NCBI RefSeq assembly: GCF_008704715.1
Contig: NZ_CP023689.1
Coordinates: 2,728,001-2,792,000, forward strand
Reading direction: 5' to 3'
Length of the DNA stretch: 64,000 nucleotides
DNA from: Streptomyces chartreusis
GTDB taxonomy: Bacteria; Actinomycetota; Actinomycetes; Streptomycetales; Streptomycetaceae
A program made the translations under genes and the position numbers. Position 1 is the first letter of the stretch. Every line of letters starts with the position of its first letter. Shown here piece after piece: positions 14,326-15,872 of the stretch. A model generated the notes under the pieces. It saw only the letters and a program-made list of their open reading frames with translations, searched no databases and had not been told where the DNA came from.

Positions 14326-14877
14326 ATGGCCACACAGAAACGCTTCGCACGGAGGCTGGGTTCCACCGCGCTCACCCTCTTGGCAGCCACCGCCACGGTG
14401 GCGCTGACAGCGCGTCAATGGCGATCCGAGAAGACACGCCTGCACGAGCGACAGCTCGAGCTCGAGGAACTCGCGATCCGGCGAACAGCTCTGGCCCATC
14501 AACAGCGTATGCACTGGGAGTTGCTGGCGAGGGCCATCGACGACCCCTCCCTCGCGGCGGTGATCGACACCTACGACCAGAACATCCCGGCGGAGAGTCG
14601 CCGTCAGTTCCTTTACGCCAACGCCTGGTACGTCCACCTCTACCACCTCTACCAGGCAGAACTCCTGGACCGAGAGGAGCTGTACACACGCCTGCGGGAG
14701 TTCTTCCAGAGCGCCGTCTTCCGCGAGTACTGGGAGGCGTCGCGCCATATGCGAGCCAGCCTCGACGAGTCGTCCGTGGAAGCCCAGCTGGGGAAGATGG
14801 TCGACGGCCTCGTCCGCGACCTGGACGAATCCGATACGGACGAGTGGTGGGTCGTCGGCAATCCGCCGACGGACTGA
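14326..14877 (+). CDS. DUF6082-like membrane-anchored protein
   Basis: A 183-aa protein. Residues 8-28 (RRLGSTALTLLAATATVALTA is the core) form one hydrophobic N-terminal anchor. A charged amphipathic helix (about 35-55, likely coiled coil) follows, then a soluble helical domain rich in Tyr/Trp (FLYANAWYVHLYHLYQAEL; REYWEASRHMRASL). This pattern fits the Streptomyces family annotated DUF6082. No catalytic residues are recognised. The ATG is preceded by GGGGGTAG. It is followed by two small genes on the same strand that may belong to the same locus. Confidence 0.75.
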   Translation: MATQKRFARRLGSTALTLLAATATVALTARQWRSEKTRLHERQLELEELAIRRTALAHQQRMHWELLARAIDDPSLAAVIDTYDQNIPAESRRQFLYANAWYVHLYHLYQAELLDREELYTRLREFFQSAVFREYWEASRHMRASLDESSVEAQLGKMVDGLVRDLDESDTDEWWVVGNPPTD

Positions 14878-15091
14878 CGGACGCAACCAGGTCGGCCACT
14901 TGGCCCCCCAGCCCCGGACGCCTCTGCAACTTTTTGGTTGTCCGCCTCAAGTAGCGTGAGAGACACCAGTACGGTTCCCCCATCCGCCGGGGTTCACGGC
15001 CGCGTCCCTCACGTGAGGACACAGACGTTGCCTCAGCGGCGCGGGTCGCCATCCCGCATTCGGGCCTTCGGGCCAGGGAGGAGCCGGTGCC

Positions 15092-15226
15092 TTGAAGCTG
15101 ATCAACTGGCTCAAGGACCGGTGGAAGGACCACCTTCGACCACACGTCTCCTCGGAGAGGGTTTCCGTGACGTGCGATGTGGTGATCGTGGCCGCGTTGA
15201 TCCATCAGTGGTGGCCGTGGTCCTGA
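15092..15226 (+). CDS. Small amphipathic Trp-rich protein, 44 aa
   Basis: A short frame starting at TTG (read MKLINWLKDRWKDHLRPHVS) and ending HQWWPWS. The strong ribosome site GGGAGGAG lies 8 nt upstream and a stem-loop terminator begins 6 nt after the stop. Both lie exactly where a real gene would need them. The N-terminal half is an amphipathic basic helix; the middle (VVIVAALI) is a short hydrophobic stretch; the end has three Trp. No family is recognised. It could be a membrane-active small protein. Alternatively the transcript could be a small RNA and the frame chance. Confidence 0.55.
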   Translation: MKLINWLKDRWKDHLRPHVSSERVSVTCDVVIVAALIHQWWPWS

Positions 15227-15231
15227 AAAGG

Positions 15232-15265
15232 GTGAGTCCCAGCTGATTCATCAGCCGGGACTCAC
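15232..15265 (+). terminator. Terminator of the 44-aa gene
   Basis: GTGAGTCCC-A-GCTGA pairs with TCAGC-C-GGGACTCAC around TTCA, giving a 14-bp stem with one A/C mismatch. It begins directly after the stop of the 44-aa frame. Confidence 0.8.
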
Positions 15266-15635
15266 ACCACCGAGGCCGGGAGTTTCGTCCTCGCGATCCG
15301 TCGGGTGATGGCCGACAGGAGGGCGGACTCCCGGTCGCCTCCGCCGACATGGGCGTGAGTCGAAGCTTCACAATGCACTACTCAGTCCCATCAGGGCGAG
15401 GTCTCTTCACAAGGACACTTGAACGACGGCGGCCGACGAACCGGCATCGGGGCGCCGGCAGCCCACCCACCGACTCAGGGTCACCTAACGCCTAGTCCCT
15501 CAAATGCATGCACGCCGGGACACTACGGAGTGACGTTTTGTTGATCCAGCCTCAGGGCCCCGAGAATCATGAGACTGTGCTCCTCATCATTACACCCGTC
15601 ACCTCTAGCCTCAGTTGTTGTAAGGACCGGTACCT
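15266..15635. other. Intergenic region before the 78-aa gene
   Basis: These 370 bp are less G+C-rich than their surroundings near 15500-15620 (CATCATTACACCC, CTCAGTTGTTGTAAGG) and probably hold the promoter of the 78-aa gene. No further gene or repeat was seen. Confidence 0.5.
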
Positions 15636-15872
15636 TTGAAGATCGTGCGCCGCATCGGTGTGCCTCCAAGCGCCCGAGGCAGTAGTTCAGGAGCGACCTG
15701 CCCGGACGTGTTCGAACTCAGTGACGGCAACTTCGCCGTCATCGGCACCGAGGCCACCGAGGCGCTTGACCCGGAACTGCCCGCCGATGCCGCCCGCGCC
15801 GACTACGAGCGCATCGTCATCGTCAGCCGCGAGACTCTCATCCGCGCCAAGGCAGACATCCCCGACGCCTGA
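15636..15872 (+). CDS. Small conserved hypothetical protein, 78 aa
   Basis: The TTG start has AAGGA about 8 nt upstream. The protein is compact: a basic N-terminus (KIVRRIGVPPSARGS), then CPDVFELSDGNFAVIGTEAT and a conserved-looking tail ERIVIVSRETLIRAKADIP. I recognise the type as a small protein recurrent in Streptomyces genomes, often near other small regulatory or DUF genes, but with no known function. It is the third member of the 14.3-15.9 kb small-protein locus. Confidence 0.75.
   Translation: MKIVRRIGVPPSARGSSSGATCPDVFELSDGNFAVIGTEATEALDPELPADAARADYERIVIVSRETLIRAKADIPDA

Follow-up and report, generated by a model that had tools for sequence, protein, structure and literature searches.

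The interval between a DUF6082 gene and a gene for a 78-aa protein in Streptomyces chartreusis contains a short TTG-initiated frame with a strong ribosome site and a hairpin after its stop, raising the question of whether a small protein has been overlooked there and, if so, what it and its transcript might do. The locus was analysed within a stretch of 64,000 nucleotides, hereafter called the window, in which the frame and its start region comprise the following features.

15092..15226, forward strand: reading frame of 44 aa with a TTG start and a TGA stop at 15224-15226, assigned to subfamily I of the peptide family from sequence, homologues and substitution pattern.
15076..15083, forward strand: Shine-Dalgarno (SD) sequence GGGAGGAG, spacer 8 nt, forming a duplex of -12.3 kcal/mol with the 16S tail.
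15084..15121, forward strand: hairpin over the TTG start codon (CCGG...CCGG), which folds in 7 of 7 subfamily-I copies.

The 44-aa frame, the strong ribosome site 8 nt before the TTG and the 14-bp stem starting 6 nt past the stop, as described in the original prediction, were all present in the sequence, the stem consisting of 9+5 bp at 15232-15265. The anatomy was compared across the whole 64-kb window, in which frames of 30-60 aa have 775 possible starts. For 148 starts the SD energy reached -8 kcal/mol or was stronger, ten of which, representing seven distinct frames, were also followed by a post-stop hairpin of -24 kcal/mol or better; the 44-aa frame was alone among the 775 starts in equalling its own values on both measures. 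Since the combination of SD and hairpin is by itself only moderately rare, its rarity is of low weight and conservation decides the reality of the frame.

When 392 Streptomyces genomes were searched at the protein level with the 44-aa query, three clear relatives were identified beyond its own genome (E 5e-14 to 5e-11). A DNA search with 14900-15300 returned the same loci plus one in genome G332, the remaining matches being short. With a six-row profile, ten genomes were found at E 6e-13 or better, followed by a decayed copy in genome G189 (E 0.004); intact relatives are therefore present in 10 of the 392 genomes, the window's genome counted. A scan of representative genomes, restricted to subfamily-I patterns, returned four Streptomyces loci including those of S. 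hygroscopicus NBRC 3401 and S. resistomycificus DSM 40133, with the copies of S. acidiscabies NRRL B-16521 and Streptomyces sp. Act143 being new. Together with these two new strains, the ten genomes give a total of 12 intact members. Seven belong to subfamily I (the window copy and loci L069, L070, L071, L072, L081 and L082), with 42-44 aa and a TTG start, and five to subfamily II (L073-L077), with 53 aa and an ATG start. Roughly one in 40 of the Streptomyces species sampled has a relative with a similarly folded mRNA, often near mobile DNA. A class-wide search of 394 genomes from 137 genera gave a convincing match in the peptide's own genome only. The original prediction of no recognised family was borne out, there being no family match in Pfam with the window peptide as query or in NCBIfam, PHROGs and PADLOC-DB with three or four members as queries. 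A literature search, which included the part consulted of a Streptomyces smORF study (PMC10654065), found no published description of such a peptide family.

Several further matches were rejected. The class-wide match in G571 (E 6.8e-4) was judged from its translation to be due to chance, and a 24-base exact match common to many genomes proved on translation to belong to the C-terminus of an unrelated protein (...SELINWLKDPEPDR). Weak full-length HMM matches to 65-aa frames (E 0.03-0.1) were by eye antisense to a common gene, a Cereibacter locus (L083) was accounted for by 12 residues within an unrelated protein, and ten PDB profile matches (best E 4.8e-5) involved one 15-residue stretch in repetitive designed proteins.

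The substitution pattern indicates that the frame is under protein-level selection. It is open in all 12 members, across which W6, R10 and V24 are invariant. Subfamily I, represented by six of its seven members because L072 has a codon insertion, gave dN/dS values of 0.14-0.55; those of subfamily II were 0.26-0.55, one near-identical pair apart. Residues Ser-25 (TCC/TCT/AGC, a TCN/AGY switch) and Arg-23 (AGG/CGT) are retained across codon classes. In each of eight hand-picked pairs, amino-acid changes were below those obtained by random placement of the same substitutions (P 0.009 or less). With this constraint, and with relatives in ten genomes and two named strains, the locus is an overlooked conserved small protein as had been predicted.

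The frame is accompanied by RNA elements located as follows.

15232..15265, forward strand: H1, the post-stop hairpin originally read as a terminator; z -4.0, covarying structure, lacking a T-run.
15274..15336, forward strand: H2, a long stem with a one-sided bulge and an apical stem, at the right end of the cassette; covariation, fold z -2.3.
15008..15043, forward strand: H0, site of the 5' leader hairpin seen in relatives, weak in the window copy.

The minimum free energy of 15215-15280 was -35.5 kcal/mol (z -4.0), with none of 200 shuffles as stable. H1 followed by H2 was found in all seven subfamily-I members, with compensatory changes in both. The 31 pairs of the two hairpins had 95.4% of cells paired (shuffled 89.7), 11 pairs changed on both sides (shuffled 4.3) and a covariation score of 0.303 (shuffled 0.190), values that are all favoured because the structure was selected on the very alignment used for counting. 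None of 500 shuffles was as high on any of these three measures, further pair types were in no excess over shuffles (308 of 500), and slid controls were 36-51% paired. An independent RNAalifold analysis of the 12 members of both subfamilies gave double changes in 11 of 20 pairs. The H2 fold was alike in the ten segments tried (z -1.1 to -5.1, the weakest being a decayed copy in genome G251). H1 and H2 are thus conserved RNA structures. H0 had z values of -1.5 to -5.0 in nine of ten folded copies; its value in the window copy was +0.17, with 101 of 200 shuffles as stable. Across 14880-15640, the search for terminator-like sites with a T-run found none. Lacking a T-run, H1 is probably not the end of the transcript and, with the conserved H2 just downstream, the proposal that it is the gene's own terminator is doubtful.

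A hairpin formed by the leader and first codons covers the start codon in all seven subfamily-I copies. Its covariation in subfamily I was in no excess over shuffles (62 of 500 as high), and the same was true of anti-SD pairing in every copy (57 to 481 of 500). In the window copy the SD was 14% unpaired and the start codon 2%, below all 33 control genes on both measures. Seven of the 33 ordinary window genes were as masked on both measures as the upper bounds of the family, and start-site masking in copies other than that of the window is ordinary, not exceptional. Translational masking by mRNA structure is a putative, weakly supported feature of the cassette.

The extent of the conserved unit was determined by pairwise BLASTN of 3.3-kb segments from the 12 members, and its setting in the window is as follows.

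14975..15348, forward strand: conserved cassette, running from -117 to +256 relative to the start codon; aligns with L071, the copy of S. resistomycificus (BLASTN, 67% identity over 376 nt).
14326-14877: DUF6082 gene, a neighbour of the 78-aa gene in genomes G001 and G021 too.
15636-15872: 78-aa gene, with no Pfam or NCBIfam match.

The block of homology is about 0.35-0.45 kb long and ends near H2, with differing surroundings. Subfamily-I copies align from about -90/-210 to +185/+256 of the start, about the end of H2; the exception to the short block is the pair L071 and L081, which have a tRNA-Ser neighbourhood in common. Subfamily II aligns to +305-389, and its syntenic pair L075/L076 throughout. 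In G001 and G021 the DUF6082 gene lies about 140 and 170 bp from the 78-aa gene with no cassette between them, compared with about 730 bp in the window. Decayed copies were also found: in G251 the DUF6082 gene is followed by H2 only, with a downstream sequence that by eye resembles an IS5-type transposase, and in G189 the hairpins are kept and the frame is interrupted by stops. The block therefore sits as a unit in differing surroundings and is absent or decayed at some sites. The interval 15349-15620, about 270-280 bp from H2 to the 78-aa gene, has no counterpart in G001, and the same genome as the window contains another copy of the 78-aa gene (G000:C1:4190401-4190576, 80% DNA identity).

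Neighbouring genes were evaluated by a profile search with ten chosen proteins, the neighbours of L072, L074, L075, L076 and L081 being inspected by eye. A profile-supported mobile-element protein was located within about 6.5 kb of 5 of the 12 loci. L071 is flanked by tRNA-Ser(CGA) on one side and an integrase on the other, next to HTH_17 and Prim-Pol genes. In another species the cassette of L081 likewise lies downstream of this tRNA gene, where a VapBC-like pair was seen by eye in place of the integrase island of L071. The L082 cassette is part of a prophage containing terminase and ParB-like genes; it lies 350 nt past tRNA-Arg, between phage genes in the same direction and upstream of the terminases. 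L070 adjoins a Transposase_mut gene, L077 adjoins Mu-transpos_C and a sub-threshold TnsA-like gene, and an integrase fragment lies 6.4 kb from L073. An integrase-like fragment seen by eye at L069 had no Pfam match and was excluded from the count, and the one PHROG query made with a neighbour of L072 gave no match. A promoter-like motif, TTGSGG-17-KGTATC, was present at -136 to -152 in L069, L071, L081 and L082 (four of seven subfamily-I copies), the same four from which it was derived, and was absent elsewhere in 545,238 bases, the window copy included. A promoter scan of the window locus with an E. coli-type consensus found nothing. Overall, we are highly confident that the locus is a real gene with a conserved RNA in a cassette that moves or is lost.

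What the peptide does was approached from its composition. Net charge was +2 to +6 in the nine peptides computed, and the original description of a basic amphipathic N-terminal helix and a hydrophobic segment holds in that such a first helix and a hydrophobic second helix recur in the family. The WWPW end proposed as a Trp-rich hallmark is peculiar to the window copy and not conserved, other members ending in HRPW, GLW, EKWL, DKWK and others. The usual hydropathy cut-off for a transmembrane helix is 1.6. The best 19-residue hydropathy was 0.50-1.55 in the nine peptides, in all cases under that value, and the suggestion of a membrane-active peptide accordingly fared unevenly, the two-helix pattern fitting predicted membrane association and the hydropathies falling short. 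Membrane association is plausible, and the prediction that the peptide acts on membranes is somewhat favoured.

A tentative explanation, which we consider possible and by no means probable, is a mobile one-gene cassette in which a membrane-associating two-helix peptide would be restrained by its own mRNA and work like a type I toxin. The horizontally carried unit of about 0.35-0.45 kb would consist of a short leader, the reading frame of 42-44 or 53 aa and the two covarying 3' hairpins. The folded mRNA, with a hairpin over the weak TTG start and with leader and 3' hairpins, would hold translation low until the restraint is released by 3' processing, by loss of a putative antisense RNA or by a host or phage signal. 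The basic amphipathic first helix may then land on the inner face of the membrane and the hydrophobic second helix may enter it, so that the freed peptide would disturb the membrane and act as a mobile-element-borne counterpart of a type I toxin.

A type I toxin mode of control by mRNA structure, as in AapA3, is likewise suggested by analogy and with low confidence. As described in PMC6733600, hairpins of the leader and within the reading frame of AapA3 from Helicobacter pylori mask the SD, and the full-length mRNA is inert until processed at its 3' end. The cassette resembles AapA3 in having a short frame on a compact, strongly folded mRNA and, in all seven copies of subfamily I, a leader/first-codon hairpin that covers the start; this is a likeness of layout, with no sequence relation claimed. 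Unlike the AapA3 masking described there, that of the cassette is without covariation or shuffle support, and no antisense RNA was found in a weak scan: no antisense promoter-like site was detected in any of the 12 loci by a consensus scan that has little power, having also missed the putative forward promoter. The peptides themselves may be compared with a second group of toxins. In small hydrophobic toxins of the Ldr/Fst type the hydrophobic helix closes with aromatic and basic residues, and the same is seen in subfamily II with its ...YFYDKWK end. Unlike those toxins, the family has a longer basic N-terminal helix, and its hydrophobic stretch is shorter and contains a conserved acidic residue.

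If the toxin-like explanation is true, streptomycete mobile DNA would have in this cassette its first native module of type I-like addiction or exclusion. That the self-contained cassette, common to prophages and integrative elements, represents a class of mobile membrane peptide under RNA control not described before in Streptomyces, whose covarying leader and 3' hairpins would time a membrane-disrupting peptide, is a speculative extension. If the peptide serves as a type I-like toxin or in exclusion, the cargo known from streptomycete mobile elements would gain an RNA-controlled module; as a regulatory RNA with a peptide, the unit would contribute a new RNA family, its H1-H2 structure. TTG-started frames of 44 aa are often missed by gene callers, and a unit of RNA plus peptide can go unnoticed between the genes of well-sequenced genomes and move about with prophages or integrative islands.

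Phage morons and cargo genes of actinomycete integrative elements offer another explanation for a stand-alone unit of this kind, one that is conceivable and that we regard as doubtful. The gene would be a moron-type accessory of phages or integrative elements encoding a host-made membrane peptide directed against competing phages or plasmids, which it would exclude or modulate; the peptide would be non-toxic to the host, and the mRNA structure would serve stability only. The autonomy of the unit, with its promoter-like motif in four of seven subfamily-I copies, is as expected for a moron, and so is its position along phage genes in the same direction (L082) and between tRNA-Ser and integrase (L071). 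Of the moron trait of an own promoter and terminator, no terminator-like site was found in the window copy. A recognisable prophage surrounds one copy only, and unlike known morons and cargo genes the cassette has no PHROG or PADLOC family and no match in 50,697 phage records; scans of viral contigs gave 6, 7 and 79 pattern stretches, none of which was confirmed. A search for Streptomyces phages with an L082 site free of the cassette found only distant phages of other hosts. Plasmid searches gave matches that look like chance only, including a tblastn record (E 0.3) and a 42-nt Alloyangia plasmid match (E 0.008).

An unlikely alternative is that the locus chiefly yields a structured regulatory RNA, about 350 nt long, to which the small frame is secondary. 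The strong covariation of H1 and H2 argues for it, as do the copies in which the frame is lost or interrupted and the RNA persists, G251 keeping H2 and G189 keeping a match to the H1-H2 model. Against it stands the clear protein-level selection on the frame. The model (R1), of which the window is itself a part, matches window 15227-15341 with 101.8 bits and recovers its seven source members together with the decayed copies in G251 and G189. Matches to the five subfamily-II copies were weak (E 0.0006 to 0.32), with opposite-strand matches comparable. Nor are the hairpins widespread without the frame: seven of 392 genomes had a model match, five with the frame, one being the decayed G251 and one G176, a match (E 0.004) rejected as chance with only an H1-like hairpin following an unrelated gene. 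Rfam 15 gave no match at gathering score, the five weak matches (13-18 bits against gathering scores of 33-76) all being far below.

A small DNA-binding protein of integrative elements, excisionase-like or ribbon-helix-helix-like, is less probable still. Small size, basic charge and two helices are compatible with such a protein, and one island has the cassette between tRNA and integrase. The AlphaFold2 models, with a mean pLDDT of only 68.5, both consist of two helices (2-14 and 21-40; 9-25 and 32-52) without a strand, the second helix is very hydrophobic, no family was matched and some cassettes are far from integrases. A leader peptide or attenuator of a downstream gene, for example by Trp-codon sensing, is suggested by a short frame with Trp followed by a hairpin and is very improbable, since the downstream genes vary among members and the terminal Trp cluster is not conserved. 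A chance frame next to a conserved hairpin, for which it may be said that seven distinct window frames pass the looser SD-plus-hairpin filter and the anatomy is insufficiently unique, is scarcely credible, protein-level constraint having been found in both subfamilies alongside the RNA structure where the original prediction had allowed for a conserved hairpin by itself.

The coding sequence has one further feature. The rare valine codon GTA at codon 15 is kept in L069, L070, L071, L072, L081 and L082, as read for five loci from the codon table and for L072 from the alignment, and may mark an RNA or DNA signal.
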